Shown: positions 3,001-55,257 of the stretch, piece by piece
Numbering within the stretch: the first letter of the stretch is position 1
Layout of the letters: each line of letters opens with the position of its first letter
DNA from: Tribonema minus
Lineage: Eukaryota; Sar; Xanthophyceae; Tribonematales; Tribonemataceae
Direction of reading: 5' to 3'
NCBI GenBank assembly: GCA_017506865.1
Contig: JAFCMP010000201.1
Span: 1,076,001-1,140,000 of the forward strand
DNA length: 64,000 nucleotides
The notes under the pieces: generated by a model
Seen by the model: only the letters and a program-made list of their open reading frames with translations
Databases searched by the model: none
What the model was told of the DNA's origin: nothing
Translations under genes and position numbers: made by a program

Positions 3001-6000
3001 CATCAACTGTGGCATGAGAATTTCGTCATCGTAGCAAGCTGTGAACCAGTGTACGACCAGGTGCAATGACACGGAGATGTCAGCCGCCAAGAGCGACTGG
3101 CGCTTTTTATGGTGCACAGTAACCTTGGTGCCAATTCAAACACAGCAGGGGGGGGCTCAAGCTGCCCCTGCACGACGCGCCAGCACCTAACCCTAGCCCT
3201 AATTCTCACGCAGGATAAGTGCACACAACAATCACCAGTCCGCACCAGTCCGTAGCATGCTGCGTGAATGTACATGCACCGTAAACTCGAGCCTAGCCTT
3301 ATGTTACAAAATGTAACCCCTACTTGTGTACACTGATGGTATTACAGGCAAACATGCGCCGGCCCTCACCTGCAAGCTAGACAGCCAGACCTCCCGCATG
3401 AACGCCTCGCAGATGCGGCTGAGCTTCAACCAGAGATCGGCATACACTCAACAGACTGTAGCATGCTGTGTAATACATGGTGACCTCAATCCCGAGCCTG
3501 ACATTCTTTAACGCGACCCCTGCCTGAATATACTAGGTGTATGATACATATATTTACATGTATTTTAAAAGTATATTTATTGATCATACATACCTGCAGG
3601 TTAGACAGCCAGACCTCTCGCGTGAACGCCTCGCAGATGCGGCTAAGCCTCAAGCCAGCAGGGCCAGCAGTGCCGCCAGTGGCAGTGTCCATGCTGCTCG
3701 CTGTGCCCACTGCTGCGGCAGTCGCAGGCTCCGTGGCAGTTACAGCAGCTACAGCGGGAGGTGCCAGCGGTGCACCCTCCACGGTTTTTGCGGTTGCTGG
3801 TGCTGGCTCCACGGGCAGTGGCTTGGGGGTCACCTGCCGTAGTCCAGATTTAATTCATTATTACGCGCATGAATAGTGCACAGAGACATGAATTGGCGTG
3901 AGTGACTCACGGCCTGTGAACATGCTCTCATTGATGCGTGGTGAGTCAGCTGCCAAGCTGCTTCCACGCAAGCGCGCTCCCGTCACTCGTCACAAAGCGC
4001 CTCTATTGAAAGCATCGGAGAAATGAGAACAAGGCCCTGTGGCGACCGTGCACAGAGCCGCAGACAAACTCTGCACAACAGAAGGTCATTGGCAATAGTC
4101 AAGGTTCTTGACAATGTTCTTCGTGACAGTCCTCTAAATCAGAGATGGCGCGTAGTGCCATTGTCGAACAGGTCGCGCGTAGCGCGAGAAAATTTTTGAC
4201 AAGTACGCGTACGAGTATTAATATACTGGTGAGAGCGGCTACGGGTAAGAGTCTAACCTGTGCTCTGAGACAACGGGTACGCGTATACCTGTGGAACAGG
4301 TTATTGCTGGTCGAACAGGTTTTTTGCCTGTTTCAGTGGGTTTTTGATGGCTTTCACCAGATTGTTCGCAGCAATGTCCTATTTCATGTAGCAGACTACG
4401 AGTTGCTTGAATCTGCTCTGGGGAAATCGTCTGAGGCTTGGTTAGCCTCGAAAGCCGTGCGTACTACTAGGGCACGAAACACGGGTGCAATGTACTGATT
4501 TAGATATGAAAGCACTGAGTAGCCGGCATGCACAATGTAAATGCAGCTTACTGACATGCACATCTCTTTGGCAAGAGGTAGCTCTCGGCCAGCGCAGCGT
4601 GGCGTTGAGTTGAGTCGGTGAAACGAAGCTCGCTAAAGCTCGCCTATGAGAAGCCACTGCGTCCGAGCCCAGCCGTTACAAGGTCAGCTATATCAGCTAT
4701 ATAGAAGATACGCTCTCTCGTCGGTGCTTGCTCGCAATCGCAGTTGCAACGCACGCTCAGGCTCCTTCACTCTTGTCAAAACGTCGGCCCAACCCAACTT
4801 CAACGGATTTATTCTCGAGAAGCTCGCGAAAACAAGCACGCAGTGTGTACGAGATTATCACTCGTGCAGCGCGTTATCAGCTGTGGACCAGTGCAGGTTT
4901 TACTCGTTGCCTCACACGACAGGTTACGCGTACGAGTTCTTTCGTGGCCACGGGTACGAGTTAAAACGCGCGTCAAAAACTCGTACCTGTACGCGTGCCA
5001 CAGGTGTACGCGCTACCTCTGCTCTAAATCCAATACTTCCTTCATCTGTGACGTATATCATGAGCTACGCGTTCATACAGTATTGGCTGCGCTGTCTTGC
5101 TGGACTAGTGCTGTGACGTTTTTATCCAACAGCAACACGGACCGTCGAGGCCTCATTATAACATACCTTCGCCACTGCAGCACCTGCACAGCACAGCCTA
5201 ATTGCAAACGATCATACGCGATTGCTCACAGACGTGAAAATGTTGATCTTGTAGGCAACAACAAGACAAACAATAACATTGCTTGAGTACATCCTGTAGG
5301 CAACACAAACATGGCGATGCAACACTCCTTCGTCCCAAATTCAAACTTCAAGACTTCCCGCCCCAAAACCACTTCAACTTGCATGCGCTCACCTTCTCAT
5401 AGAACAGCATGAGGGCGTTGGCCACCCTCTCCTGCTCCATGGGCACAGTGACAGCAGTGCTGCTGCTGTTGCCGCTGCCCCTCCAACTGGTGGCCCCTTG
5501 CACAGGACCCATGCCACCAAAGCAGCAAGTCTCAATGTTTGCTAGAAGAAGGTTGAGAAGGGGGGGGGGGGGGAGGGGGGCACAGAGGGGCATGGTCATA
5601 AGCAAGTGCAACTGTCACACAACCGAATGGAGCTTGCACTGCCGGAATGCAGACAGTACCACTTTTGTTGCTGGCACTCTAGAGTCTCAGCCTTTGCTAC
5701 CAGTTTCAGCACCATAGATCTCATCCCTGGCTGGCTTGTGTGACATGTTTGACGCAGTGCGCCCAAGGTAGGTAGGTAGGTAGGTCAACTACAAATCTGG
5801 TGAGACGTGACTCTCCAGCCCACTGTAGCAGTTGCCATTAAGTGTGCTGAACGATATTTGACGAGAGAGGCAAACTTCATCGCATTGCCTACCAGGCTGC
5901 GCAGAAAGCTGCACATTCTGACGCGAGACTGCTGCCACTTCTCACCGTAGTCAAATGGCAGCACGTCATTGTCTTCAAACTGAAAGTCACATTCATTGCA

Positions 6001-9000
6001 TCCTCAGCCTTGAATCACTGTTGTCAGGTCTCACTGGGGCCAAACGGCAATCACATGAAAGCGATCCCCAATCATTAATCAATGTTGGCATGTCTCACCG
6101 GGGTCAAATGGCAGTAGGACCAGATGGCAATGACATGAACATTAAGTCTGATCCTCAACCTTGGGTCAAATGGCAGCAGGTCCAAATGGCAATCACATGA
6201 AGGTAATCCTCAACATTGAATCAGTGTTCTCATGTCTCACCGGGGTCAAAGGGCAGCACGTCATCATCGTCACACATGCAGTGCATCTGCAGCCTTCAAT
6301 CACTGTTGTCAAGTCTCACCGAAGCCAGATGGCAATCACATGAAATTGATCCTCGACCGCGAATCAAGTCTCACCGGGGTCGAATGGCAGCACGTCATCG
6401 TCGTCAAACTTGAACCACTTGGGCTCGCGCCCTGTACGCGGCTGCCGCTCCTTGATGAAGCTGTAGTAGTGGCCCCCCTGTGCTACCCCCGCGTGCACCA
6501 GTATGCCCTTGAGCTCGTACAGGTACTCCGCATCAGCCGCCTGCGAGGAGCAGTTGAAGTCAACAGTTGAAGTTGACGGCATGATGAACGATACATTTGT
6601 GAAGTGTGACATAACTATGACATATCATGTTCATGAAGCAATGAAGTACATTTCACATAAGCACCAGTAGGGCAATCGACTCACGGCACTTCAACAATAA
6701 AAACTGAAGTTGCACAAGCGCATACATACATACCTGCGTGGCGGCATCCGGGGTAGCGCCCACCGCCGCCCCCTTCGGAGTGGAGGGCACACTGGCAGGG
6801 CCTGTCGCACCAGCGACTGGGCCACCATCTGCAGGCCCAGTCATCACCTGCTGCGAGTGTGTGTGCTTTAGGGTCTGGAGCTCATCCAGGGTGAGGTCGC
6901 CGCCGGCGCTGCTGACGGCCTGAGGCAGTTACGGCAGTTGCAGGAGGGTATGGGGAGGGTATGTATGCATAAGTGTGCATGTGGGGTCTGTAGTACATGC
7001 AAGGAAGGGGCTGGCGTAGCAGCGTCGTGTGCATCGTAACGTGTGCATGACAATGTCTTGCTGACAGCAGCTTCAAAGGAATGAGCCATTGCCGTGTGTG
7101 AACAAGGTGAAGCTTGGCGGGAATTGGCGCCTGCGTTGCAGGTTTCGTGCCCTCTCTGTGTTTAAGGGCGGCGCTATGCGCAGGGCATGAGTCATGAGAT
7201 CTCATGTAGCCAGCGTATGGTGCCATAGGCAGTTCAGCACTCGATAAGCAAGTGCTTCATAAATGTAGAATCTATCACGCGCACTCAACATTCAAGCAGG
7301 CAGCAATAAGCGAAAACCATTACATGCAGTGACCAGGGCCCTGTGTTCCATTGAACAACAAGGTATACTTCGAAGTACATACATACATTCATACGTCTTC
7401 ATCACACTCCTCACGGCGCATGCGCAGAGTAAGGTGTGTCATTGCACCAGCTCTTGTGAAAAAGCACAGTGGTGCCAATAAGTGCTGCTATGACGCAATC
7501 ACAAAGAATCCAATTCCTCTCGCATTGGTGCATGTGATTTGCAAGACAAATCATTTCAAGTACCAGCACTTGTGCTGCTATGGCGCAATCACAAAGGATC
7601 CGATACCTCACGCATCAACCCATGTGCTTCGCAAGACACATTATGGATAGCACTTGCGAATGTTCTACCTACACATTATGGATAGCACTTGCAAGTTGTC
7701 TACCTTGTCCAGAGCCAGTTGCAGCGCTTCCTTCTCTTCAATGCCCTCCTGTGTGTACGGCTTGACGTCCAGGGTCAGCGGAAACTCACACCTGCCGCAG
7801 CAGCACCGCAGTCAGTGACACTCCATGAAGGCGCAAAAAAACAGAATGAACACGAACGATGACACTGCCGTATTGCCGATGTGCTCAAAATTTGATGGCA
7901 TATGACAAGTTGAAGAAAATGAACCTATTACGTACGGCATAGATTCCTTTCTGAAACTACGACGGAAGACCCGGGACGGAGTGGAAACTGGGCTGCTGGA
8001 GCTAGAGAAACGAGGCTCGCCCTCTAGCGCGGCGAAGCTAGGGGGGCAGACAAGACTCTTGACCCGCGCTCCGCCTGCTGTGCTACTGCTCGTAGGTGAG
8101 GAAAGGATAACGCTACGGATAGCTCGTGCTAAACAACCTGGAGCCTCCATGTAAGGATGGTTCAAAACCCGCTCATCGCCTTCTGCACTACGCGCATTCA
8201 AGAGCGCTGTCACTAGCTGCTGAACCTCTGAGTTGGGCTGCCGGCTGGCCCTGGCCCACCTAACACGTGAGACCTTTCCATTATGAACACCCATGCCTCG
8301 GGCGCTAAAAAGCTTGCACACAGAAGTCTTTTTGCCTACTGTGGTTATGGTGGCACTGTTTGACTCGTGGCCAATGACTGCAGCAGCGGCGACCACGGTC
8401 ATTGGTGAAAGGCACATGCGCCTAACCATCCCTTAGGGTTAGGGTTAGGGTTAGGGTTACCTAACCCTAACTCTAACCCTAACCCTAACCCTCATTGGTA
8501 AAAGGCACATGCGCCTAACCATCCCTTGTCACGTAGAGCACTACGATCTTTTGATTCGTTTTTCATGACAGTCTGCTTTTGTTGAGAAGTGGAGGCAATT
8601 GCTGCATGGTGATTACAAGACACCAAGTTAGAGCAAACTCTTGTGACAACCGCTACACAGCCTATTCTTGACTACTTGGCAACTACAAAAGTAACCAGAA
8701 TAGATGCTTGAAAGTACCTCTATAAAACTCGGCTGGAATGGCACCATCCAGCACGCCAACAAACACTCCATCCAAATCAGCCGCCACCAGAAGCAATGTG
8801 ACCACGGCTCTTTTTGACCAAAAGCTGAGGCAGCCTCTCCATGATGGTTTGGAGGCTCTCAACGGTCGTCGACGTCTGATTCTTCACTGGTCCGTGTTCA
8901 TTGTCTCACTGCATGGCACGTCGGCACGTATTTGAGGTGCACCAGCAAGGGTTAGGGTTAGGGTTAGCCCTAACCCTAACCCAGCCGCTGAAGCACTCCA

Positions 9001-12000
9001 GTGCTTTGAGAAGCGCTATCCTTGTTGAGGTGGCGTATACCTGTTGTTGAGCCTGACGGTCTCAAAGGCCATGTACTCAATGGTGGTGTATGCTTGTTAA
9101 GGTACATAGCGTACGCCTGTTGTTGAGCTTGACGGTCTCACAGTGGTGCACTCAAATAGCCTACCTGTTGTTGAGCTGGACTGTCTCAAAGGTGGTGTAC
9201 TCATATATATATATGGTGTTTGCTTGTTAAGGTCCAACTGTAACCCTAATCCTAACCCTAATAGCCTGTACCTGTTGTTGAGCTTGACAGTCTCGAAGGT
9301 GGTGTAGTCCAGGTCAAAGCGCTTGAGGTGCAGTATGAGCAGGTTGGGCAGCGCCCCCAGGCTGGTGCGGCGCATGCTGTCCTTCTTGGTACCACACTTG
9401 TCACACTCCACCTGCAGCAATTTGAATTTGAATAAGGATTTTTATCAGAAGACTGCGGGCGCCAGTGTAGTAAGGGTTAGGGTTGGGATTGAGGTGCATT
9501 TCACATACTCAACCTGCTGTGATCAGCCGATGGTGCGGTCACAATATGGGAAAAGGTTCACGTCATGCAGTGCGCTGCCATTTCTGGTGCCATGACTGCC
9601 TTGTGACAACCTGTGTCTGTAACATGTGCACTGCAGAACGACTATGACTTGAAAGTAGACAATGAGTAGAGTCCGGCAAGGGTGCAAGCTCATGCTGACG
9701 CAGAGACATGCATCATGGAGCACTTGAGTTTAACTTATAGTTGCTCCATAGACTCGCTCACTAAGGGGCAGCGCTGGCACCCACTTCAAGGTTTTGGTTA
9801 CAGCACTACGCTTCACACAACCTCTGGCTGAGCACACCGCGATGGCAAGTTGGCAAACCTTACTGCAAGTACAAGCTGTAGTCTTCACGGCTGACGGTGA
9901 GTTTGACTTTGCAGTACCTGCGCATCTTTGCTCACACTGCTCTGTTCCAGAAGTGCTAAACTCTCCTCGTTATGCGGATTCCTGCATGAGGCTCTGTCAA
10001 TTCGACAGCGAATCATCCTCCCTAGGTGCAATTTGGGGTAACCAACAGGTTGCCTGCATGAGGTACCGACATTTCGACAATGAACCATCCTCTCTAGGCG
10101 CGATTTGGGGTATTCAATAGGTTTCCTGCATGAGGTACTGACATTTTGACAGTGAATCCTCCTCTGTATATGCAACTTCAAGTACTTGTTGAAGTTACCT
10201 TGTTGTCCCCCTCCATCAGTTCCCCCTCTACCAGAGCAGCCAGGGACTCCTGAATGGACTCCTTGCCCCTGATGATGAGCTCGAGTGCGATGAAAGGGTC
10301 CTCGCGAGAGGTGCGGTGCGAGCAGCCACGAGGAATTTTCTCCTGGACAAGTCTGCGGGCGCAATAGGGTACGTGAGCATGGAATTCCTGAAAAGGGTAT
10401 GTATGCATGGAATCCCTTGCGAGAGGTGCGGTGCGAGCGAGCAGCCACGAGGAATTTTCTCCTGGACGAGTCTGCAGGCGGGATAGGGTATGTATGTATG
10501 GAAATAAATACAAGGCACGCATTTAATCAGCCCCAGGCACTGTGGTATTTCCATAGGGTTCAGTAATGTAGGGTCCGAGGGTTTGCATGCTTGTTTTTAT
10601 TGTTATGGACACACAGAATCAGAGAGACGTGATACAGGCAGCATTCCCGTAAAGCCACATCAACAGCCCACACTAGGCCTGACCCTAACCGCAACCCGCA
10701 CCTCAAATATGAACCCTAGTCTCAACTCAACAGAAAAACGTCGTAGCGTACGTGCTGCTGCAAGAGACATGGGCACCGCAGTGGCCTTACACTAATCCAA
10801 AGCAAGGAGCACAGGCAACGGCACAGCCTAAGCCTAACCCTAACCCTAACCCCACTCCTAATCCTGAGGCGTAGACCACAAGCACTTGCTGCAGCCCTGC
10901 AGCTGACAAGCTGCACCCAACCCAAACTCTGGGGCTGACCACTCACCTTCCCCCAAAGCAGTTGGCGAGGGCCTTGGCGCTGTCACCCTTGACCGCTGTC
11001 TCCAGTCTGGAGCAGGCAAATGGAACCGGCGATAAAGTGATCGATTAGATCAATCAGCATGATGAGCACTGTCACAATGTCGACGTTGCACGCAGCAAAG
11101 TCGCATCATTTTTTGACGCTGCAAACGTTGACGCAGAGCTGCCGCAACCACGCTGCATTCAAGCAAGGTCATCTTATCTTGAGTAAAAACAGCGTGCGGC
11201 TGACGCATGTTCACACGTGGCACATGCAGACTTCAGCACTATCATGCTTACACTACGGGACAGATCTCACACAACACGATTGGAGTTGCATGGCGTGCAG
11301 GTCAACCAGATTTAGGGTTAGGGTTAAAGTCAATGATTTGGTGCAGGCCGCCGTTGTACTAGTGAACATTCATTCATTGATTCATGATCATGCATTCATC
11401 CATCAGCGTTACCTGTCTAGTAGGTGCAGAACTCGCTGACGTCAAAATGGCGGTAGGCATCCAATCGCTAATTCGTGATAATTCATCCATGCCCAATTTG
11501 GCCATTCACTCATGTGCACTTCCAACATAAACCATCGGAGCTTGGTGCTGCATTCACCCGCATCGTTGTGTTGGTGCACGCTCACTCAATTGCTCATGAT
11601 TGTTCATTTGTGCTTTCATTTACACTTCAAATGCGTCACCTGTCTAGCAGCTTGGTGCAGAACTCGCTTGCGTCGTTCTGATGGTAGACCGAGTACTGCA
11701 GGTTGAGGCACTTGCAGACCTACATGGATGCGTGCAATACAAAGAGTGGCAGCACAGGTAACAGCCAGCAATAACATGACGCGTAAGGTCCACATTGCAA
11801 TGTAAAGGCGGGAGGGAGGCTTGCGGTGGCCGGAGCATAATACGCTGTCTTGAAACCCCTTCTGTGACACCGTTAGGCATGTGATTTTCACAGTGCTGCT
11901 GGACGTCGCTGGTAGCATGACATCCGCTACACGAGCGCGCAATTGCCCTTTTGATGGCAATCATGGCGCCATGTGTGATGGCATTGATCTACGGTGGCGT

Positions 12001-15000
12001 GTCAAAAGGTTTGCAGCACAACTGTCCTGTGCACATTGTATGTTGTTAATGCAGGCGCTTCGTCGTTGAAAACACCTTCACTTCAAAAAGTTGTTAGGCA
12101 ATGCCTGCAACTCGAAGCACATGAGGTCACCGTTGAGATTTCAAGAAGCCCGTGTTGACCCCTGACAGCAGCCCTAGTGCGCACAACTCCACAAGCCCGA
12201 TCCTGCACTCTGGCCCCAACTTCGCGCCATGCTTATGCAAATGGACACTGCATACTGCACTCAGCACTGCCCTGATAGCGACAGATGTGCGCCAGAACGC
12301 ACCTCCACAAGCGGGCGGGGGTCGAAGTATCGGGTCTGACTGTCGTTGAGGTAGCAGAACGTTCTCTGAACCTGCTCCAGCAGCAGCCGCGTGTGCTCAT
12401 CCTCCGCTTCCTGCCAAAGCAAAAAGGTGACAATATATGGAGAATATAACGTCAGGGCATGTGTGCACGCGTCCTGACTCAGGGCAGATGCCTGCCAAGC
12501 AGGAAACTGATGATATGTGGGAGTCACCATGTCGGAGTAATATGGACTGCTAACGCTGACCCACCTCGAGAGCAAGATCAACTTGAAGTTCACTTGGCTG
12601 CTGAGACCAACAGGTACATAAGAGCAACTTAGGGCTAGGCGAGGCTACACTGAGGCTAGCTCTGATTTGACCCTAGCTGCAAGGACCTTGCATAAATACA
12701 ATGCACTGACAGAAAAAAAACACCATGTTGTGTCAGCACCTTGATTGTGTCGACCCTGCACCCCAGAGCTAGCGCATTTTGCCAAGAGATGATGACTGTG
12801 CAGATGATCTTTTAAATGCTGCTCAATGTTAACTACCATATCACACTGTAGATGTTTTGACTGTTTTGACTGCTGAATGCATGTCAGCATCAAGAAATGC
12901 ACCACTGCAACCCTATTCCATTTTGTGTCAACGCTAAATCACGCAGGCACTTGCAGCTGGAAGCCAACACTGCGGAAACACAACGGCCCGGTATACTGAT
13001 GTGGTCTGTAACATGACATGGCTCTGAATCTGCGACAAATCATGACGTCTATGACAAGCTATGAGTGCATTTCAACCATGGATGAACTGGTGCAGTGTGC
13101 TGACCTTCTCCTTCTCTTTGTCGGTGAGGTTGCGCTGCGGTACCACCGCCGAGGAGCCCTGTGCACAACAGCACAAGCATTGGCATTTCAGACTTGTAGC
13201 AAGAGGTTGTCTTGCTTTCACGAAGGTTAGGGGTGGCGTAAGGGCTAGGGTTTTGGCAGATTGCTGTTGTACATAGATTGCATCGCCGCCACTGGGGCCT
13301 GCACTGAGCGCTTGAACGCCCCTGCCTGCACTGTTGTCCTACAGTACAGTACCTTTACGGCACTGTCCGATGTGAAGCACGCACCCAAACATTGCATCTG
13401 TGTGTTGCTCGCAGCATTCATGCATCAAGTTCTGGCCAGGGTTGCATACGTGTGCACTAGCCGTGACCCTAATCCTAACCCTAAGTAAGTGTCCCATAAC
13501 GCCGCGCCAGTGCTACTGATCTCGTTCGCATTGATTGAACGTATCCCGGCTAGCATGATGCATGGGTTAGGTTTCAAAATAAGGGGCATGAATGCTACGC
13601 ATGGCATGGACCTCGCACCTAACCCCTAGACTTCGCACCTAACCCCTAGACCTCGCACCTAACCCTACCCCTGACCCTAAGCAAAGGGTTACAGTGTAAA
13701 GTGCGTGTCGTATGCGCACCTCGCACCTAACCCAAACCCTAACCCTGATCATACGCGACAGTTCTGCTACCCACCTTGTGCACCTTAGGCAGGGGCGTGA
13801 AGATCCCCGTCTCCTTGCCCGGCCGCCCGCTGCGTAGCACGAACGTGTGCACAATGCCCTGCCCCTCGTCGTCGCTGTTCTCCGCACTCGCCTCAGGAAC
13901 TGTCCCAGGAGCGGTCCCAGGCGCGGTCGCAGGGGGGCGGATGGTGGTGTATCTGATGGTGTGCATGCCCGTATCTGGCTGATAGCCCATCACCTTGGCC
14001 TGTACATACATGCATACATACCAGCGTCGAGAGCGATGTCAGCACCCAAAGAAGCGCTTAATTGAAAACAGTGGTCAAAGCGCTAGTCTATGTAGACGCC
14101 GCATGTGTCGGTGCTGGTGGGTCAGCTTGGACTGCTGCTGTGCATGTGGTTGTGGGTCAAATGACAGCCGTTGCCTTTCAATTTCGTAACAGATTACTGT
14201 AACAAACCGGGGATCAATGCAGGCGAACATGGCCAAGTTGCAGGCACACATATGCAGGTGGGCGTGCACCTTCTGACCCTTACTCAACCCTACCCTGACC
14301 TTGACCCTGTGCTCATGTGGTCATGGAGACAGGCGCTGACATTTGCCGTCCGCAGCAACGATACTATTGCAGTTCATGGAAGTGCACACGAAGGCACCAG
14401 GAATCGTTGCAATGCTATGGTGCAGACTGCTGCACAACGGGTGATATACAAACCCTTGCAGAGCCGCAAGTGCAGACCGGCTCGATCTTCCTTTTCATCA
14501 TCCATTTGGATAATTCAATGAACATACCTGCATGGGCTGCTGGCTCTCAAACTGCATCATCAAGCGCCTGCCGACCCACTGAGCAGGGTCCTCTGGCAGG
14601 CTGGCGTCACTGGGCCGCGGCATCGGAGCAGCGCTGCAGATGGCCTCACGGAATGCAGGGACCATAAACAGCTGCAAGTAGCACAAACCACAGGGCACAG
14701 CAGCAGTAGAAAGAAAAATGAGAATTAATCAGGGCAGCGCTGCAGATGGCCTCACGGAAGGAGGGCACTATGAGAAGCTGCTGGTATCACAGACCACACG
14801 GCACAACAGAGGTAGCGACAGGGTCAGATGTTCTGAAGCTAGCGCCAGTGATGGATCAATGGCACTGGATTAGTTGCAGCATCTAGGGCCAACAACTGAG
14901 GACTGCATACACTGCATGCATCTACCACATAAAAGTGCTATTTACAGTGCAGTGCATGCACACACATGCTGCAAATGCGAATGGTGCATGGTTCTGTGCA

Positions 15001-27000: not shown

Positions 27001-30000
27001 CGCAGCGTATATCGTTGTATCTGTTAGCAACGTGACCTGCAACAATGTCCTTTCAAGTATGTAGGCATCAGTCTGTTAATGTGCTTGGCTGATGATAGGC
27101 CGCCAACACCGCAACATGTAGACGCAGCACTCACAATCAATCACTCAAAGTCATGTGATATTCACAGCTTGACACCAGCTTGAAACGAACAAGGTGTAGC
27201 TCACTGTGACGAGAAGACCAGCCTGTGCCTTCACTGAATCGGTGCATTCAAATCAAGACAGAGAATTGAGCCACAAGACAATTTTTTTTACACAGCACAG
27301 CCCAACATGAACGTTACCCCTGACTTCAACTTCAATGAGCTCACCATGTTTAGGGGACATGTCCCCCTCAGCCGCCTCGATCGCCTCCTGCAGCAACTTC
27401 AACAGCCTCTGCCCGCGCACGTGCACCGACTGCGCGCTGTACTGCGCGGTGGACTGCTGCTGTACTGCGGCTGTACCGCCGCTGCTGAGCGCTTGCCGCA
27501 TGTCGTTGAGCACTGCCTGCAGCCTCTCAAATATGCTGCCCACCAGGTCCTGCCGCGCTGTGCTCCGCTCTGCGCAGCGCAACAGTGCACAGTCCTAGTG
27601 TTAACAAACAAGAGCGCAACTGATGGCCTGCTGTTATCGCGCTGATGTGATGCAGCATGCCGGTCAATATAGCATGACTGACAGCGAGAAGCTGATGATA
27701 AGCTGATGAAGTGAAGCACGCAACAAGTCAGCACTCCCGTTCCCACTTCATCAAGTGCTTCTACCAAGTACCCATCACCATACTTCTGCATCGGCAACCA
27801 GGAATTGTGGGTGGCCATGTATGTGCGCATTCTTTGTCCTCGCCAGTAACAAGATACACGAACTAGGCTCACCATAAATACCTCATCGCCATGCGACAAC
27901 ATTGAATATACAAAACGCACCTTCGTCGACAGCGCTGCGCGTGTACACCGACAGCAGGTCGCGCGTGGCCGTATCTGCCACATTCTTATCCCCCGTGGTT
28001 AGCACAATCCGCCACAGCGTCTCCACCCCCAGCCTGTGCGCCTCCCGCAGCGGCAGCGGCGGCACCGCCACCGCCGCAGACGCCGCCACAACCTGAGCGC
28101 TGCTGTCAGCCATGTCATCGGGCTCAATCACTTCGGCAGTGACGGCGGTGATGGGGGCGGTGTCGCGTGCGAGGTCGCTCAGGTGCACGAAGAAGGCGTA
28201 GAAGCAGGAGTACGCAGGGTGGCCTAGGTGGGTCCAGTCGGCCTGGCCGCAGATGAGCTGGCTGAAGACAAAGGCCAGCTCAAAGGGGCCAAAGGCGGCC
28301 AGGGGTATCTGCGTGGGCGCGAGCATGAGAAAAAAAAAAGACAAATGGCAGCGTTTGGTGATGGTGGTGAGGGGTATTTGAAAGTTAACTTCAACAAATC
28401 AGGTGAAGTTAAGAGTCACTGGGTCTGGCACACAGGAGACGACGCAGGCGAGCTCGCATTCGCATAAGGCAACATCTGCTGGCACTGATGTAGTTGCTTC
28501 AAGGAGCATGCAGGCAAAAATTGGGAGTAACTGAACAGCTTGTGGCGACACCACTTCTAATAATGACTTCTTTTCTAATGCCATCCAGTCCACTGTTGTG
28601 CGCCTGGTGCGAGATGAGGGCTGCTGGGACTTGAGGCGCACCAGCTCTTGCCATCACTTCCACTCTCATGCAATCCAGTGCACTGTGTACTGTGCACTGT
28701 GTGTACTCGTGTACCTGGTGCGATATGTACTTACCAAGCAAGCAAAACAACCTGTGTGTACCTAGTGCGAGGTGAGCGCTGCTGGGGGCTTGAGGGCACC
28801 AACTCTACATAATTGTCAATGCAATCTAATGCACTGTGAACTGCAAAGTTCACTGTGGGTACCTGGTGCGAGATGAGCGCTGCGGGGGGCTTGAGGGGCG
28901 CCACGTGCGGCACCATCTGAGCACTGTCCCCCGCCTCGCTGGCCCCCTGCAGGAAGGCCATGTACAGCTCCCTCTCCTGAGGCATGCTGAGAATGTCCCA
29001 CAGGCGCTGCAGCTGCTGCACGCTCAGCTTGACCGCCTCCGATGCACCGTGGAGGTACCTGCAAATGCGGCAGTACGAGGTCAGGTTACTAATGGTATGC
29101 TTCGAAGTAGAAAATAGAATGCACACCATCAATTACACCAAGCAACGGCAGTGACAATGGCAGCGAGCTTCACTGCCTCCGATGCACCGTGGAGGTACCT
29201 GCAAATGCGACAGTACAAGGTCAGGTTACTGTAGGTATGGGAAATTAAATGCACACCATCGATTACACCAAGCAACGGCAGTGACAATGACAGCGAGCTT
29301 GACGGCCTCCAATGCACCGTGGAGGTACATACCTGAAAGTGCGGCGGTACAGGGTCAGCTTGACATCGGTCATAGAAAGTTCAATACGCAACGAGCAATT
29401 ACACCAAGCAATGGCAGTGACAACGACAGCAGCCACGTGTGCAAGTCCGCAAAAGTAACCCTAACCCCGGCCCCTAACCCAAAGACCAACGTGAATGCAC
29501 AGACATGACCATAATTTTATCAATCTGCTGATGCTACTGAAGAACGACAAACATACTAAATGTATGTCAAGTTCATGGTACCTGAGAATCTCCAGGCGCT
29601 GCTGCACGTGCTCTAGCCGCAGTGCCTCAGCACTCTCCGCCAATACGTGCTTGCCCACACACTACAGGTACCTGGCCCTAACCCCACCCCATGCATGTAT
29701 ACCCTCGATACATCTACACCTTCCATATCAAGTACTTGAAGTGGGTGTTACAGGTATGTCTGTAGTACCTGAGGATTTCCAGGCGCTGCTGCACCTGCTC
29801 CAGCAGCAACGCCTCAGCACTCTCCGCAGGTATGTGCTTGCCCACACGCCGCGGGTACCTGGCCCTAAACGCCTCAAGTTCCGCAAGCAACAGCTGCTGC
29901 AGCCCCAGGCTCTCACCCTCCATGTCTGCGGTACCTACGCCTGCATCATGGCAGCATTGCAGTGGGATAAGCGGTCAGAAGGAGAGGCATAGGGGGGTGA

Positions 30001-33000
30001 TACACGTCGCTCTCACATAAACTATAAAGTGGACACTTGAAGAGGTCAACGTCAAGAAAGAGCCGGGGTGACAGTGCGCAACAGAAGATGACTCTCCATT
30101 CCGCTCACGCACTTCTGCGTGCAACACTTTTGTGGAGCTGCAGCATGCAACCAGCAATGTTCAGCTTCAAGGTGCGGACACACATTGGACACAGTGATGA
30201 GTGCGCGGCACGTCACTACTCCTTAAATAATGAATTGGAGAGGAACAGCACAAGTACTTCAAGTTGCAGGCACGCATCAGACACAGCGCTCAATCTGTGC
30301 TCGGACACCCGCGAGAGCTCGCACACATGGCGCATGGGCCTATCGTGTCAGATTTCAAGCACGCCATGCTCGTCCTTCGCTTGCATTCTACACCAAAAAA
30401 CTTACAAACATCCTCTATCACACATCCGAATACGTGATCGTGAAACTCGCCTGCGAGCTCACACACGACGCCCCCCACGTCGCGCGGGTCGAACGTGTCA
30501 AAGATGAAGCGCGCCAGCTGCAGCGCGCGCCGTATCGCCTGCTCCTCGCTCTCGCTAAGCACTGCCTCCCCATCCAGCCCGCGCCGCTCCACGTACTCCA
30601 GGCACTGCTGCAGGTAGCGGTGCTGGTGGGCGTAGGGACCCCGGCCCGGCGGCAGTTGCGCGGTGCTGCTGTCGAGCGCTGCTGCGGAGGCGGTGGCGGT
30701 GCTGAGCATCGCTGCGGAGTTGTCCAGCGCGGCCGCCGCGCTGTTGCGCGCCGCATGCAGCATGGTGCCGAAGAACTGGGTGATGGCGTTGCCGGCCTGT
30801 GGTGGTGGTGCATGTGAGAAAAGGGGTTAGGGTTGACAATTAGGATGAGGGTGAGGGTTAGGCCGAGGATTAGGCCTAAGCCTAAGGTGGTGGTGAGAAC
30901 CAACAACTGGTCAATATGAGACATGTGTACGCACTGATCCTTAGATGGCGATTGGGAGTTTCAGCAAGTGCGGAAAGTGTCACGTCGCGATGCTTTGAGG
31001 TCTGAAAGTTCACCACACAAAATCTAGGACATTGTTGTCTTCAATGGCAGTTGAGAAGTAAGAGGAATAAATCATGCCTAGCCCTGGCCTCCACTTTCAC
31101 CATCACTTGCTGCCATAGCATATTGACAAAGCTATGCTCGAGCAGTCAAGCAGGGCACCAGAGTGCAAACAAGATGCTTGAATGAGTGATTTCCACGCAC
31201 ATGTCCTTTGTGACAGGCAGTTCTTTGCCACTTGACGCCGTAACGTAGGACATCACTGCGACCCTAAACTTCAAGACAAAAGGTACAGTGTACCTTGACC
31301 GTGCATAGCGCATCGGCGGGTCAGGCTTCTGCAGTGCCTGACTGCAACTTTGAACTTGAAGTAAACTCTACAGTGACCCTGACCTCGACCAGTCCTCTGC
31401 AGCATTGCGCAGCTGTAGCAAGCACCAGTACATCTACGTCAATTTGAAGTGTGCGTCAACTCGGGTGCCCAACTGTATCTATGAAGATCAAGTTGGACTA
31501 ATGTCGCGTGACTGCAGGCTTCAGCAGCAGTGCCCATCTGTAAACCTAAGCTTGAAGCAAACTTTGCGGTAAGCCTGACCTTGTGGCATGAGAGGCAGTC
31601 CTCTGCAGTAGTGCATTAATTTAATTTGATTTTCTTCAACTTTGAGTATGCATCAACCCTGACCTTGTGGCGTGCAAGGGCGGGCTTCTGCAGCAGCGAC
31701 CACAGCAGCTCCAGCATGGCACTGCCCACTGCCTCAGACGCCCACAAGAAGGTCTGCAGAGCCAACAGAAGCAGAGCAAGAATGAGCAATCGGCAGTGAA
31801 ACCCAGGGAATGACTCCGGCAGTCAGCAATTCAAACCAGGGGACTACTCCAACTCCTGCGTGCAACTCAAACACGCCTGGGGCTGTAACAGCCGCTGCAG
31901 GGGGGCCGGGGCAAGGTGGATCCCAGCAAACCTAGCATGAGAGAGTAGCGCGTTTGCGTGTGACAGGTTTATGTGCATTATACATACTTCGAAGTACATG
32001 ACAGTTACATACAGTACAATAGAGCAATTACATGCGCATGGCGCGCAGCGAGGAGCCGCACCAGCCCCACAGGTACCAATGCGTACGTACGTACACATGT
32101 TATGCAGTGTACACGCCAAAATACATGCAGCATACGGTGTGAAGTGCATACATTCGGTATGATAGATGCAGCGAGGCTGATATGCAGTACATACTCCAAA
32201 GTATGTGCATACGATATGAAGAACATACAGTATGATGGCAACTCACATGCGCATGCGATGCGGCAAGGCGCTGCACCAGCTCCACCGCCTCCGCCAGCGC
32301 AGTCGCGCCAGCGCCGTTCCCTGAACCGACCACCAGTTCCTCACTCTTGCTGCTGGGAGTTGCGGGCATGTTGGCTGCGGCGTTGACCTTGTTGATCAGG
32401 TACACAACGAGCTCCGGGGCTGCGCAGCGCATGAGTGTAGCCAGCAGGGCGTAGACCTCCGACTGCAGTTCCACCTCGGCCTGGGGTGAGGGGGGGGGGG
32501 GGTAATAGTTGGTGAGGGGTATCATAGGGGAGGGGGGGGGGCAGGGTGAGGGTGATAGTTTGTGAGGGGTACCCTAAGTGTCGTACGAACCATTGGTGCG
32601 TAAAGCACCAGCACAGCGCTCCACAACACAGCGTGTGCGTAGTTGAATCTTTGCACAGAAACAGGAGACCGGTTGTACAGGAACACGGAAGGATGACCTT
32701 TGATGTCACATCACCATGCCCGATTTTGTGCACACACACGCGCTACACAGGCTCCTGCGCCAGGTGCAATTGCGCACGAGCACCGCTCAAAGTCAACTGG
32801 CGCGCTTTGTTTTCTCGAGCCCTTGTCTATGTCCCTTGATGTGCCGCACGTTCCTGCACAGACTGTGTACGTACTTCAACTGTCCCTTCAACTGCTGCAC
32901 ACACACAGCTACATACATGCCCTACACATACTGCCCTGCGCAATCTCAGCGTGAAAATGAGCATACCGTAACAAATGCCCTACACAGACTGCCCCTGCGC

Positions 33001-36000
33001 AATCTCATTGCGAATTTGCATATGCGGCTTGCACACACCTTGCCCACACAGGCGGCCCATATGAGGTCGATGTGTGCTGCCGTCAGGTACCCCGGCATCT
33101 GGCTGCAGCGGAAACAGCACACGGGAGGCAGGTCACAAAACATCAACGTCAAACACTGGTCTTGAGTCAGCAGCAACAGCGCACAGCAGGAGGGTCACAA
33201 GATACATCAAGATCAACAACAACTGGTCTTGCCCGAGACCGTCAGCAACTACACTCGACAACATCAGAAGCAAGAAGCCTGTGACTTGCCGCTGCAGTGC
33301 CTTCACGCTGTATTTGAAAGTACTAGACGCAGCGCGAAGACCGGAAAAGGCATGGACTCTAATTGTGTGCGCCAAGAAATGAGATCGATAACGTAGTTTC
33401 AACATCCACGCAGCGTGTCAGTGCGCACACACAGTAACAGCATCAGCATACGATCGACATGAGTTGGATGCAAACTGGGTCATTGCTCAGGTAACCCCCC
33501 CCTAACCCTCACCCTCTCCCTGACCCTAATGCTGACCATGACCCTAGACTGAAGTTCAGCCACGCAAAAGCGAGACAAGAAGCAGCCCTATCTCATCATC
33601 CCTAGCCTGGTGCTCCAGCCTTGATTGTCCTGAGCCTAGCCTCATAATTAATTTTAAGCGCATTTCAAGTACCAGAGCATTGCCACAAGCAGTAGACCCT
33701 TGCCAACACTGTGTGATCCATGTCAATGACTACTACTGTACACTGATCGGTCAGTCAGTAAGATCAGTTGAAGATAGTGTGCTGATGCGCAGACAAACCT
33801 CGACAGAACACACCACACGTGAGGAATGTGAGCAGTGGCCCACTACCTGTAACCTGACACTACCTGTAACCTGAAAACAAACCCTAACCCTAACCCTAAC
33901 CCTAACCCTAAGTCAACCCGATCCCTAAGCAGCAATCCTGTCCCTCATTCCGACGCAACACACCTCACAAATAGACCAGGCACTCTTCTGCAGCATACTC
34001 CTGCTGATGCTCATCACGTGCCTGCACGATGCCGTTTCGCCAGACTTACTTCAAGCATTTGACTGGAGTTTGCCGTTTCGCCAGATTTACTTCAAGCATG
34101 TATTGAAGTTCGCCGCGAGCGCAGGGACAACACCCGTACACACATGAATGTCATACTGGAGGCCTCTATGTTGCATTCAGCGGCAACAGCCACCAAACTC
34201 CGTTGCCTACAACCTGTATCCTACACATAACGGTCATTATCAATTCATCTATCATAACCCTAGCCTAATCATCGATCCTGACCCTAATCCCGACGCAACA
34301 CACCACACCTGAGAAACTTGAGCAGCGGCGTGTAGCCAAACACCGTGGCTCACTATCTCTAACCTGAGCCTCGTTATCGGCCGTTATTGATCATCACCAA
34401 CGCTGACCCTTATCCCGATGCAACACACCTGAGAAACTTGAGCAGCGGCGTGCTCCTGCTGACCACCTCCCTGTGTATGCCACTGCCAAACACGTCCTCC
34501 ACAACTCTGTTGGCAATGGCCCACTTCGCCACCTGGTGCTCCTGAAATCATCATGAATAGGCACCGGAGGTTGCGTTGAGGTTAAACGCGAGCACCTGAC
34601 AAGACATGCGTCTGCAAGCAGTTGTTGCCATTGCTGAGTTGGCAATGGCCCATTGTGCCGCCTCGTGGTGATGAAGACGACATGTGTCAAGCCTAACTTT
34701 GACTCGGTCGTAGGTTTGAGCTAGGTTACACAATGTCACGCTTTGTTACATCAACATTCACCCAACGGCACCCTAAACACACACATGCGCGGCCTGCTTG
34801 TGTGACCTTACAAGGGTGAATGTTTTCGGCACTGCTGCGCATCACAATAAGCTACATAGCACAACCATGCCATCACCATCACGGTGATGTATATGTACAC
34901 AGACACACACATATTACTTTACGACACACGTAGTGCGAACTCAGAGTAGAGACTTGGGGGGAAAGGGTGTGTGCGCAGCAGCAGTGCAACTGCCCACCCA
35001 GACCAGGTACAGCCTGTTGCACTGACCCCCCCAAACCGAGCGATAGCTTTCACTTTGAGAGCAGCACCGTAGAACATTCCTGCAACTCTCCTGTAGACAG
35101 TTTCTTCCTGGGGAGCGTCATCCTAGGAGGCCATCAGGTTCATTTGCTGTTGTAGATGATCCTCATCACCAAATTCATCTCTTTGTGCCACCATCTAGAG
35201 CCTATAGGTCATTATATCTGCCCCACAAGCGCCCCGTTCCCCCCCATTCCCCCAAACAAAGAAAAACTGCGACAATAATGCTCCACTACAGTATACATAG
35301 GGGTCGCATGGCAGTGCTCACAAGAGTGTCCGTCTCGTCGTGACCCTCTGGGATTACGCGGCCAACGGGGGTGAGTACAGGGGGGGGGTCTTTGCCGCTG
35401 GCCCCAGTGCAAACGGCCGTCATCCAACCATGCCGCGGGGGCTCCTGCTCGTCCTGACGCAGGGTCTTGTGCTGGTAGTAATCCACATCCTGCAGGTCAG
35501 GAGGGCAGGGTTTACGCTTTCAGGTCAGGTAAAGACAAACCTAGGGCTAGGAGTAAATGAGGCACAGTAGAGATCGACATACTGCAAATTGCAGTTCAGG
35601 CACCAGACACTCAACAACAGGGATAGTAACATTGAGGTAAGCTCAGAATTGAGTGCTGACAAACTTGCAGTTTCTGTGGGGTGAGACCAGGCAAATGACA
35701 TCCTGAGGCAGTGGCAGCGATTATGGGTTGGCAGCAAATGAAGTTGTGTCAAACCTGGGCCAGGCATGTGGTATAAACAGCAATGTACACAGCGCTGCTC
35801 AATCCCTCAAGGCTTTTGAGGGGAGGACACACGGTAGCGACAGCTTCAAAATCAGCTGTCCATGACTGTACATATCTTGTGGACATGCGGTGCAGAGAGC
35901 CACAACAGTTGGAGCAATGAACTGCATGACTCGACAGCATCTGCTGATCAGCATGATTAATATGCACATACTGCAAACATGCTTTTGGACACACATCTGA

Positions 36001-39000
36001 AATGAGAAAACGAGAATCTGCAATTTGCTGATGGCATATTGCTTAAGGCCTCCAAAGATGTTGTACATTATGTGCCAATCGTCGTACTCCTCATCGGGCC
36101 AGTGAACGACCATGAGAACAACCTTCTGCAAAATGTGCACAGTGCCACCTGTCTTGTCACACACACGACAGTTCATATACAGTACACTCTTGCACTGTAA
36201 CAGTACACGCACCTTGTCCGTGCCCGGCGAATCGGGGTGCGCGACGCTGATGAACCAATTCTTTGTCTTGTTGCGCATGGTGCAGCGGAACAGTGTCAGG
36301 TTGGGGGGCCTCTCCGGCTCGGGGGTCCCCTCCGCAACTTCAATTGTGTACTTGGGCGACCCATCCTGACCCGTGCCCGAGTATCGGTAGCGCCCATTGG
36401 CCTTCTCAGTTCCGGCTCCCTCCACCACGTACTCTCTGCAGATACATACATACCACGGCAATGTCAGTGCTCAGTCAATGGCGTTCCGCGTCCCTCTACG
36501 CAAAGGAATGCGCCGTCGTGTGTGATGTGTATAATATAACTTCAAGTGAGCTGCCGCAGCCACGACTGTGTGGGTGCAGGATCCCCCCTGGACGTGTCTA
36601 AAACATCAACTTTGCTCGTGCATACTGTTTAAGTAAATGCATCCAGGTATGCAGCAGTAACAGGCATGCTGCCAACTTTGCTAGTCTACCTGACTGATAC
36701 TTCCTCCAATTGATGGCAGTGTAGATGCAGCGCCGCTTTGCCTGTACAAACCTTATTCTATTCCCACGCATCCATAGCAGTGTTGGCGTAATTGGTGAGG
36801 TACACTCTCAGGCAACCAAATCAAATTTCCTGCAGAAAGGCCAGCCCCCGCCAGCAATGTGTGGTCATCTCCTCACCTGGGGGGAGGCCGAGCACTGGGC
36901 CTTGCATGGGGGTACACAGCCTTTTCGCGCCCTGAGCAAGAACTAGTAAAAAGTACACAGCCCTTGTAACGCAAGAAAATTGAATTTTCCACAGAGAGGC
37001 CAGCCCCCGCCAACAATGTATGCAAAATCATCTCCTCACCGGGGGGGGGGGGGGGGGGGGGAGCACTAGTCTAGGTCTTTGCATGGGGTACACGCCCCTT
37101 GTAATGCCAGAAATCAAAATATATGTAGAGGGGCCAGCCCCCGCCATCAATGTGTGCAAAGTCATCTCCTCACCTGGGGGGGGGGCGAGCTTCTCCAGCC
37201 GTCTCAATCAACTCAGGGACTTGCTCCCAGCCAAACAAGCGCAGCGGCAGCGAACCACTCCTCAGATACTTCAACGTCAGCTGAAGCCAGAAGTCAAAGA
37301 CCTGGTGGAGGGAAGGCGATTGCGCGAGTGGAGTGTCAACTTCAAGTTGTATACAGGGGACCCGGAGCAGAGCACAGCGTCATTGTTGATTGGCACAGAC
37401 CGATAGAAGTGGGCACGCAGCTGCAGGCAATCCCAGGGCTAGGGTTAGGGTTAGGTTTAGGCTTGGAAAAGCAAGAGCTCACCCATCATTGCCTCTTGTT
37501 GTTTTGAGGTAATTGGGTCAACTGAGGCTGGAGTAGGGGCAGGCTGCCCTAGCCCGTACCGCAATCATAACCCTATCGCCCACTCAGCATGAGCTGCTTG
37601 CTTTGGGCTCTCAGGTCTCAGTGGCCTGTACTGGCTGCTTCCTCAAGCAACTAACTACCACACTTGAAGTACTGAAGTCAGTAATAATCCCTTGTGCAAG
37701 TTGTAGACATTGACAAGCCAGACCACTGATTATGCCAATGCCGGGCAGTCTCCCGCCTGCCACTACATATCACGCATCAGCTCCTTCAGCTTTCATCGGC
37801 CAGTAGGAGCCTTGCATACATACATATTATGCGTCAGGGACAAAAGCAACAGCGAAGAGCAGCACTTGACAACTTCCTTGATGCACATCACTAATAGTAG
37901 ATAAAGGCTGCGCATAGGTTAGGGCTGGGTTAACCTATCCCTTTGAGGGTTACCTATCCCTGTAGGGGTTGAGGTTAGGATAAGCCCTAAAACTAACCCT
38001 AAAGGCACCGTCACGAGACTGACAAGGCATCATGACACCAACCTCTTCAGAGTTCTCAGGACCATACCACCCCATGATTGTTTTCAAGGCCCGCAAGATG
38101 TCGCCGATTGTCTGTTACATCAAGACAAGCAGGGGGGTAGCGGTGAGCTTGAAAGTGACCTGAAGATGAGCATTACGCTGAGATTGAGGTGCGGGTGAAG
38201 GGCGAAACAAAATGCCGAGGGGTCCAGACTCTAGTATACCTACTGTTGGGCCATGACATTGCTGGTAGGTAGTGTTTCACACTAGCATCTGAGAGACAAG
38301 GGTTGATTGAAAAGCATAACCTGCCTGTCTGATGGCCTGATTAAGGCAAGTGCACTCCAATATGGCTAACAATATAAGGTGCACGCAATACAAATGAGTC
38401 ACCCCAGCACAGTGGCAAAGACCACGCCTATGTGCTGTAACACAGAGTCACCTTGCAGATGGGGCATTCATTGGGGATGGGACCAGGGACCGGTCACAAA
38501 TTGGCCACAGAAGGTGCCGCAACCAAGCCCACCCAGCACAGACACACATGCAAAGCCATCAAAGGGCTCATGACGCATGAAAATGTGGTGAGAGCGGCCC
38601 AACTTCAAACCAGATGTCAAATTTTCAACTACAGCAGAAAAGGCATATGGCCCTACTTCAACATTATGTTGAAACTTCAATTACAGGTGTAGGTTCGCCA
38701 AGGGTATGAGGGTACGTAGGTATGCCTTACCTCGCTGAGCTCTTTCTTGAGCTCATCCTCACTGAGCAGCAGCATCTGCTCCATGATCAGTTTGCACAGG
38801 TATGTGGTGCCCTCGATGTCATCGGTGCTGCTGCAAATGCGCAAATAAGAGGACGGAAAGCGACGATGATAGTTAGAGGCAGTGCACTGACTTGACCATC
38901 CTGTTACAACGACCAATAACAGTAGTGGGATGGCACAGGCAACTGTTCTTTCCGACACCAATGGCAGCCCCTGTGAATGATGACAAAGCACTGCGCAGAC

Positions 39001-50305: not shown

Positions 50306-51642
50306 ATGAGCGGCTTTGCCCCCTGCCCTGCACATGCTGGTGGCCTTCGCAAACCCCGTGGCGTGGCGAAGCTGGTGACGGCTGTTTGCGTGGCCAGCGC
50401 GCTGCAGACTGCTGCTGGCTTCACTGGCATGCGCAGGGCATCGTTTGGCCGGTCCACAGCCCCTGTCTGCGCAACAACGCAGGTTCACTCAGCACGACAT
50501 GCTTGCCAAGTCAGCTCAGGGGTTACCAGACGGCGTGCGCCCTCGCGGTCGGCGGCATTGACGATGGTGAGTCAGCATGGGCAGGACGGATGTTGCAAAA
50601 CACCGAATGGCAAGCATTGTATCTATGGTGGTGACATGGATGCGGATTTTGGATGCGATCCCAACATTCGTTCTCGAGATCAACTCGCTGATTGATGCCC
50701 CAATACCCTATCTCATTACAGGTTGCAACAGAGGTGCGCCCGGCGGCTGTATCTGCAGCACGGCAGGAACAACAGCAGCAAGATGCCGCCTCAGCCGAGG
50801 CGTTCTTGCCCTGGATCGAGTCCTGCGCCGGCGCCGAACACCCTCTTCTCTACATGCCCTTCATGGACTATAGCCTCGAGCAGCTGGTGTCTCAACTCGA
50901 GCTCCAGCCCACGCCCATGGACGAGGAGATGGCTCTCCAGCACTCTTTGCACCCGGCAAAGCCAGGGCGGATCGCCAGCCTGCTCTTCAATGGTCCGTTA
51001 ATCCGCAAGGCGAGGCTCACCTACTTCGACGCCGGACCTGCCGTCCAGGTGTTCAACATGGTGGTCTACCCCGACCCATCCATCGACGCCCCCATACTCG
51101 GCGTAGACCTGATCGCCTTCGGCAAGAAGCACCTGGCAGGCATCGACTTCCAGCCCCTCCACGCCGACGCGGGCTACGCCGACCGATACCTGAGCACCCT
51201 GGGGGACATCAAGGCACGCTACCCCGACCTGAGCCAGACCATGTCTGCGCGCTTCTACGACAGCGCGCGCTTCTTCTCGCCGCACATGCTCTTTGCGCGC
51301 TTCGAGGACCGGGACCTGGTCCCCTCGCAGCTCTTCCCGGCGTTCAGCGAGTACCTGAGCGAGTACGTGGAGATGCTCAGCAAGGCGCCGCGCGTGTCCA
51401 CGCCGGAGTTCAGGGACGCGGTGCTGGAGCGTCACACGGCGTACGACCAGTACAATGCGGAGCGCGACCCCGCTCACGGGCTGTTTGTCCAGTACTTTGG
51501 CCACGAGTGGTCGGAGAAGTTCATGGACGACTTCCTGTTTGAGCTCAGCACGCGGCCGGAGGAGGGGTACCCCAAGGTGGAGCACGGGCCGCCGCAGGCA
51601 AAACCGCAGCAGCCGGCGCAAGCAGCAGCAGCAACCGCTTGA
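50306..51642 (+). CDS. PEBA: Plastid 15,16-dihydrobiliverdin:ferredoxin oxidoreductase (PebA-like)
   Basis: Ferredoxin-dependent bilin reductase; PebA reduces biliverdin IXalpha to 15,16-dihydrobiliverdin in the plastid, which PebB turns into phycoerythrobilin. Exon 1 is 50306-50566, exon 2 is 50722-51642; the GTGAGT...CAG intron joins in phase 0, giving 393 residues. Residues 1-87 form a leader: a hydrophobic core (VAKLVTAVCVASALQ, 20-34), then AAGF with Phe39 and an Arg/Ser-rich transit part. The core reads FDAGPAVQVFN, ILGVDLIAFGKK with a conserved Asp at 216, IDFQPL, YADRYL, RYPDL, AERDPAHGLF and FMDDFLF (Asp356/357). This agrees with PebA better than with PebB, PcyA or HY2. The C-terminus ends in a Gln/Ala tail. 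The frame is intact. Confidence 0.85.
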
Positions 51643-55086: not shown

Positions 55087-55257
55087 GCAGTGGTCACAGC
55101 TGTGCTCGCCGTCGAAAACTGTCACTGCAGAAGGTTCTTACCCCCCAGCTGTTAGGTCAGGTCAGTTGAACTCGAATGTGACCCTTTTTAGCATGTAGCC
55201 ACTACTACAACCTTGGGGTAAGCTACAACAGCTCTCTAGAAACAGCACTGCTGAGAT

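Follow-up and report, generated by a model that had tools for sequence, protein, structure and literature searches.

In a window of the Tribonema minus genome (G000:C201:1076001-1140000; the whole stretch of 64,000 nucleotides that was analyzed), the edges of the exons of a deubiquitinase gene, together with their splice sites, recur as copies in the neighbouring introns. This yellow-green alga belongs to the xanthophytes, within the PX clade, and has a genome of 158 Mb; the gene lies on the minus strand from 48649 to 2019. The copying of exon edges into neighbouring introns is real, and it is limited neither to exon boundaries nor to this gene. The reading that we favour, with a probability of about three in four, is that short tandem duplication is pervasive in this genome, that it is purged from exons and tolerated in introns and at exon edges, and that the spare copies decay neutrally.

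The gene encodes a USP9X/USP34-like deubiquitinase. As modelled it has 50 exons, and the joined reading frame of 3027 codons contains no stop. The exons were predicted with our own gene finder and then changed by hand. Six of the 60 gene-finder exons were judged to copy exon ends next to them and were taken out before counting, as were three that were short and weak and two first exons considered doubtful, eleven in all. Two of the six copy-like exons are skipped by the public Tribonema minus protein P0121 (JKP88DRAFT_316761), a predicted protein encoded at this locus, and the other four lie upstream of its coverage. Exon 2486-2019 was added after P0121, and the start of one exon was shifted from 5496 to 5541; the alignment test of exon edges described below still took 5496 as that start. 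When translations were compared, the 21 exons from 19454 downward matched P0121, and 16 of them also appeared in the tblastn listing at 85% or more. For the 29 exons upstream of these, the basis is the prediction itself and the fact that the joined frame is open. P0121 contains the UCH peptidase domain, and a query assembled from catalytic pieces and one generic motif had USP9X (FAF-X) as its best solved relative.

Exon edges were compared with introns by Smith-Waterman alignment, in which a score of at least 36 counted as a match and non-cognate introns and the wrong-side intron served as controls. The donor edge matches its own downstream intron in 12 of 49 cases and all other introns in 1 of 2401, and the acceptor edge matches its own upstream intron in 3 of 49 cases and all other introns in 0 of 2401. 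At the same score no edge matches the wrong-side intron (donors 0/49, acceptors 0/49). A sequence-only reading of this DNA had held that the copies are exon-specific and carry the splice site of their exon, and that no transposon family is involved; these counts bear it out on both points. In a self-BLAST of the window, 46 of 50 direct matches are less than 3 kb apart, and at a stricter cut-off five of the six inverted or far matches are telomere-like. The 21 self-BLAST clusters in the gene comprise 12 that span a donor, 3 that span an acceptor, 6 that are intron-only and none internal to an exon, in agreement with the claim that mostly the donor side is copied here. The acceptor clusters, at 10352, 14671 and 29058, are the three cases that had been placed at 10.4, 14.7 and 29.2 kb. 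When the edge test and the clusters are united, 14 donors and 3 acceptors are affected in 16 of 49 introns, where at least 13 introns had been proposed.

In the gene, the junction clusters have smallest offsets between 62 and 224 bp and top identities between 79.5 and 92.1%, which agrees with the graded decay described before. Offsets and identities of this kind make collapsed or doubled reads, and hence assembly errors, an unlikely source. The window and one 50-kb block were also shuffled with a third-order Markov model (Markov-3), and neither shuffled sequence gave a match. The features of the gene are as follows.

3368..3658, minus strand: source 3658-3592 at the end of exon 3833-3594, copied to 3433-3368 at an offset of about 225; the spacer is homologous (0 of 300 shuffles reach it)
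5940..6412, minus strand: end of exon 6540-6375 and several copies (edge test, self-BLAST cluster)
9038..9309, minus strand: end of exon 9411-9272 and three further copies (edge test, self-BLAST cluster)
10300..10503, minus strand: acceptor and start of exon 10352-10199, with an upstream copy at offset 115-119
11413..11660, minus strand: end of exon 11719-11640 and a weak copy with mapped donor 11413, offset 227; score 36, equal to the threshold
14622..14815, minus strand: acceptor and start of exon 14671-14528, with an upstream copy at offset 106
18259..18468, minus strand: end of exon 18605-18409 (60 exon and 22 intron bases) and a 90% copy, 18340-18259, skipped in P0121
19226..19372, minus strand: end of exon 19454-19353 (20 exon bases) and a copy, offset 102; from self-BLAST, with a sub-threshold edge score of 26
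20425..21147, minus strand: end of exon 21426-21103 and a copy array; Tandem Repeats Finder periods 93 and 96, 4 to 5 units each
24184..24389, minus strand: end of exon 24452-24349 and a copy, offset 141
26269..26421, minus strand: end of exon 26581-26380 and a 92% copy, offset 90
28587..28903, minus strand: end of exon 29058-28863 and copies (edge test, self-BLAST cluster)
29026..29430, minus strand: start of exon 29058-28863 with its acceptor, tandem copies upstream, offsets 140 and 270
29578..29868, minus strand: last 100 bases of exon 29940-29769 with the donor, and copy 29681-29578, offset 187
32032..32290, minus strand: end of exon 32480-32247 and a weak copy with mapped donor 32032, offset 215; score 36, equal to the threshold
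33924..34452, minus strand: end of exon 34541-34429 with its copies, of which the first is offset by 120-125
36812..37190, minus strand: end of exon 37301-37174 with two copies, the copied part being mostly intron with 12-17 exon bases; sub-threshold edge score of 25
26614..27044, minus strand: intron-only tandem duplication, offset 218
7482-7644, 8399-8980, 9976-10178, 40813-40986 and 42086-42392, minus strand: other intron-only clusters (self-BLAST)

The pattern had been taken as a property of one gene, which does not hold: most of the further stretches of the genome that were sampled show it as well. The sample outside the window comprised 220 kb from six places, namely four 50-kb blocks at arbitrary positions on contigs known from a UCH search and two 10-kb stretches, one of which surrounds a UCH match. 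Predicted exons there were dropped if their score was below 6, their length below 45 or the other strand better, and 164 of 364 were kept. The share of bases in local direct matches is 8.3% in the window, lies between 8.0 and 14.5% in the 50-kb blocks, and is 8.2% in one 10-kb stretch and 1.6% in the other. Over all seven sequences, window included (284 kb), 204 local matches within 1 kb are direct and 5 are inverted. The duplicated share is 15.9% of bases in predicted introns versus 6.0% in other non-exonic DNA. A predicted exon edge is crossed by 61 of the 83 clusters outside the window (36 at donors, 21 at acceptors, 4 at both); 2 clusters are exon-internal and 20 lie elsewhere. Edge copies within 1 kb were found for 56 of 210 donors and 33 of 210 acceptors (49 of each 210 belong to the deubiquitinase gene), versus 7/210 and 6/210 on the wrong side and 5/895 in the distant control. 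The earlier proposal that introns grow by duplication at exon boundaries thus stands as far as the gain in length by local duplication is concerned; since 6 of 21 clusters in the gene are intron-only and 20 of 83 outside lie away from exons, the boundaries are favoured but not exclusive.

Two HSP70 genes, a family in which the exon ends are known from the proteins, show the same pattern. One of them (L034, on C190) has two intronic copies of each of two exon ends, which had been called as pseudo-exons. The other (L035, on C41) has a donor copy and a duplication of 97.7% identity across an acceptor, with an intact upstream acceptor kept. The two genes are paralogues, and in both of them one and the same homologous exon end (after GIFEVK / GVFEVQ) is duplicated, perhaps a recurrent site or an inherited one. 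Six of 13 further loci have at least one local direct match, two of these six (L007 and L033) overlapping, and seven have none. Both HSP70 paralogues on C522, which are among these seven, lack local direct duplications, so that polarisation by comparison of these paralogues is not possible. The HSP70 exon matches C179 221650-221982 and C90 846742-847074 have identical scores; this pair is possibly a recent segmental duplication or a pair of allelic contigs, and could then polarise intron duplications.

In nine donor alignments the copied blocks include between 12 and 100 bases of exon and between 2 and 50 of intron. Duplication offsets are mostly 80 to 500 bp, with a median of about 177; donor offsets look bimodal (about 81-145 and 196-257), and acceptor offsets do not. 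At first sight the copies seem spaced: homology across the whole spacer is clear in 2 of 8 cases and marginal in 1, and 63 of the 204 matches are near-contiguous as they stand. Alignments anchored on the splice site were possible for the 47 of 56 donor pairs and 24 of 33 acceptor pairs that are close enough. Among the donor pairs 42 of 47, and among the acceptor pairs 19 of 23, have intron sides whose homology exceeds 95% of shuffles. For most pairs the copies are remnants of larger tandem units. Their spaced look would come from divergence of the intron part on both sides, when in the exon part one of the two sequences is held constant. Seven near-contiguous duplications with identities of at least 90% have gaps of 0, 0, -2, -3, +2, +3 and +10 bp, that is, two blunt breakpoints, two with an overlap of 2-3 bp and three with a filler of 2-10 bp. 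At 85% or more there are 11 such duplications, with gaps from -10 to +24.

A simulation combined tandem duplication with neutral decay and selected pairs in the way used for the data. At 0.1 substitutions per site and 0.15 to 0.3 indels per substitution, the simulated pairs have an identity of 0.88-0.89 over 47-48 aligned bases, with homologous flanks in 0.85-0.92 of pairs and too-diverged flanks in 0.19-0.33. The corresponding observed values are 0.893, 45 bases, 0.89 and 0.40 for donors, and 0.902, 44 bases, 0.83 and 0.52 for acceptors. Plain tandem duplication with decay therefore fits much, but not all, of the shape of the copies. Edges sharper than the simulation predicts are seen at C35 8663-8910, C35 9758-10063 and window 29578-29868.

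Differences between exon and copy were counted by codon position, and amount to 103/1490, 105/1497 and 243/1480 (7%, 7% and 16%). Among the changed codons 188 are synonymous and 193 nonsynonymous, and 4 stops occur in 1398 codons. The observed silent share of codon changes, 0.49, is close to our own neutral estimate of 0.48. This codon pattern is near what is expected when an exon under constraint is compared with a copy that decays freely, and it looks neutral. The mapped GT is kept in 44 of 56 donor copies and in 38 of 44 fully aligned pairs, a retention that resembles that of ordinary exon dinucleotides within the copies (0.81). If a copied donor were used in the deubiquitinase gene, 10 of 12 extensions would contain a stop and 9 of 12 would change the frame. 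P0121 joins the outer donor at all six copy-bearing donors that it covers (19353, 18409, 11640, 9272, 6375 and 3594). The suggestion that the copies leave competing splice sites thus finds little favour: the codon pattern, the stops and the joins of P0121, all read from sequence, give no sign that copied donors are used.

The positions of the clusters were compared with a control in which clusters were rotated along the sequence. In the gene, the rotation means are 5.1 donor, 5.2 acceptor, 10.7 intron-only and 2.2 exon-internal clusters. The 12 donor clusters observed are 2.3-fold above expectation, and 0 of 1000 rotations reach 12; the 3 acceptor clusters in the gene show no excess over rotation. 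Outside the window, 40 clusters span donors versus 16.2 expected and 25 span acceptors versus 15.5. Removal of six pseudo-exon candidates gives 39 versus 15.5 and 23 versus 15.3, stricter exon scores give 23 versus 8.4 and 18 versus 8.1, and the strictest exons give 12 versus 4.7 and 11 versus 4.7. Exon-internal clusters number 0 of 21 in the gene and 2 of 83 outside, where rotation expects 2.2 and 7.7.

Part of the excess at junctions is a matter of detection. In the simulation the bias of detection toward junctions is 1.3- to 1.4-fold over all ages and larger for old cohorts; at about 0.1 substitutions per site, the level suggested by the identities, duplications at junctions and elsewhere are about equally visible. 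Detection bias was accordingly rejected as the whole cause of the enrichment. Three contributions appear to add up at exon edges: the purging of exons, the longer visibility of copies anchored in an exon, and a residual excess, perhaps 1.2- to 2-fold by our own arithmetic. The donor bias is 12 to 3 in the gene (p=0.035), and 52 to 28 clusters (p=0.01) and 56 versus 33 edges (p=0.02) when pooled. As a rule for the genome it was rejected: stricter exons give 23 versus 18 clusters and then 12 versus 11, and since the bias is gone with the strictest exons we do not claim it as general. Stronger decay of acceptors was also rejected as its cause. In fully aligned pairs AG is kept in 12 of 18, compared with 38 of 44 for GT (p=0.09), and the difference over all pairs (14/33 versus 44/56, p=0.001) is inflated by poorly aligned pairs. 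The intact upstream acceptor in the 97.7% duplication of the HSP70 gene on C41 also counts against stronger decay of acceptors.

These observations are probably best put together as follows. Short stretches are duplicated head to tail across much of the genome, most likely through end-joining repair of staggered breaks with fill-in synthesis. Selection would remove duplications inside exons, and those within introns or across exon edges would survive; at an edge they would be tolerated since splicing continues at the original, outer site and removes the spare one together with the intron. The spare copy, presumably unused, would then decay as neutral DNA, and introns would thereby lengthen, partly at their ends. 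Several facts weigh against this account. The intron sides are often more diverged than twice the divergence between exon and copy (19 of 47 donors and 12 of 23 acceptors fall below the 5% simulation bound), the simulation yields fewer too-diverged sides (0.16-0.33 at K 0.05-0.1) than are observed, and intron-side homology is absent in 6 of 55 informative pairs. The end-joining signature consists of seven cases. Junctions outside the gene are 1.5 to 2.7 times above rotation, and random placement leaves a part of this unexplained. In addition, the spaced matches at 90% or more (9 of 16) are at predicted exon edges in 9 of 9 cases, eight spanning a junction and the ninth lying 34 bases inside an exon. 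The contiguous duplications at 90% or more are at junctions in 2 of 7, which speaks for visibility, whereas the 9 of 9 spaced matches speak for a real preference; both numbers are small.

Such a preference would be expected if exon edges were themselves mutational targets, with breaks or fill-in favoured at GC-rich, transcribed exon ends and introns growing from their ends. This proposal, which we regard as rather unlikely, is compatible with pervasive duplication and would account for the residual excess. It agrees with the excess of donors in the gene and of donors and acceptors in the 220 kb, which held with the strictest exons, with the GC content of the deubiquitinase gene (64.6% in exons, 50.1% in introns), and with the higher share of duplication in introns than in other non-exonic DNA. 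On the other hand, only two of the seven contiguous duplications are at junctions, about 1.4-fold of the excess is detection bias, and acceptors in the deubiquitinase gene lack an excess (3 versus 5.2). The stronger form, in which something linked to exons or transcription directs duplication to junctions, introns grow from their ends and spliceosomes routinely pick the outer site, seems to us unlikely. The sharp contrast between exon part and flanks in some pairs, with 95% identity in the exon part and strongly diverged intron sides (for example C35 9758-10063), could come from gene conversion between exon and copy, which would keep the exon part alike while the flanks diverge; since plain decay already yields most of this profile, we consider such conversion improbable.

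Selection on the copies as functional alternative splice sites or exon ends is very improbable. GT is kept in most donor copies, the donor score of the copy equals or exceeds that of the original in 24 of 56, and the exon part is better preserved than the intron flank. The retention of GT is ordinary, however, the codon pattern is neutral, the offsets modulo 3 are 16, 16 and 24, and most extensions run into stops. We give hardly any credence to the idea that the copies are remnants of the birth of these introns by tandem duplication of exon pieces bearing AGGT. Several copies do show AG|GT at the mapped end; the contexts of donor and acceptor, however, align at an offset of intron length in 0 of 137 introns (ungapped, 56 positions), and in nine donor alignments the copy ends 310 to 1274 bases ahead of the next exon. 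Insertion of an introner-like mobile element with a long target-site duplication would explain why the spacer lacks detectable homology in 5 of 8 source-copy pairs. It can be set aside almost entirely: the genome contains a single occurrence of the one spacer that was searched for, a 3.8-kb segment of the gene has no second copy except one 49-bp match, intron sides are usually homologous, and edges match non-cognate introns in 1/2401 and 0/2401 cases.

To our knowledge, the lengthening of introns by means other than transposons is poorly documented. Short tandem duplications are reportedly a common type of natural insertion in rice (Vaughn and Bennetzen 2014), and we know of no relation to exon edges from that work. 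Tandem duplication is a known model for the gain of new introns from exonic AGGT, described in the review PMC3443670. The model resembles the present case in that a local duplication touches exon sequence and splice signals; there introns are created, whereas here existing introns are enlarged and the signature of birth is seen in 0 of 137. In the potato gene RdRp (PMC4974935) a duplication across an intron-exon boundary gave a new intron. This is likewise a boundary-crossing tandem duplication that copies splice signals, but it is one case with a new intron, as compared with 61 junction-spanning clusters per 220 kb and 15 in the gene here, where nothing points to new introns. Small tandem duplications from the end joining of overhanging breaks have been described in mouse stem cells with Cas9 nicks (PMC5730883, PMC8355091). 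They are direct head-to-tail units as here, and overhang joining with fill-in was shown there. The overhangs there are some tens of bases, whereas the offsets here are mostly 80-500 bp and the mechanism is a putative one. Introners shape the introns of algae including Aureococcus and Florenciella (PMC9860276). They form dispersed families with transposon marks, whereas every copy here is specific to its own exon, which disfavours introners as the source. Among the matches listed, in a searched literature that mostly excludes subscription journals, no paper described the copying of exon edges into adjacent introns across a genome, and the matches listed in part of that search included no paper on the Tribonema genome itself. 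The present case differs from the known systems in its scale, in its relation to exon edges and in its outcome, longer rather than new introns.

Since the exon serves as a fixed reference, the age of duplications, the neutral rate and the tolerance for duplicated splice sites become readable from one genome. The exon-edge copies can in this sense be regarded as dated fossils, a readable record of intron growth. About a quarter of donor edges (56/210) are copied within 1 kb, 44 of them with GT, and these form a natural experiment on the choice of splice sites.

The introns of the gene (2019-48649) are enriched in the telomere-type hexamer TTAGGG on the sense strand, with 53 occurrences in sense and 14 in antisense orientation, where about 9 are expected, and 47 of the 53 sense copies lie in the first three fifths of the intron. 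Predicted introns elsewhere have 76 versus 34, and in other non-exonic DNA the hexamer occurs 18 times in forward and 23 times in reverse orientation; counted per intron, the sense bias is 42 versus 15 (p=0.0005). Telomere-like runs lie inside introns at 8433-8492 (two opposed runs, TTAGGG then CCTAAC) and 33880-33911, and these runs make up the five of six inverted or distant window matches mentioned above. Two further genes lie in the window. A ferredoxin-dependent bilin reductase (PF05996) at 50692-51639 on the plus strand is 99% identical to a transcriptome protein, and its nearest relatives with a named organism are from Phaeothamnion and brown algae, at 55-58% identity. A CRAL/TRIO domain protein is encoded in one open frame at 54037-55137 on the minus strand.

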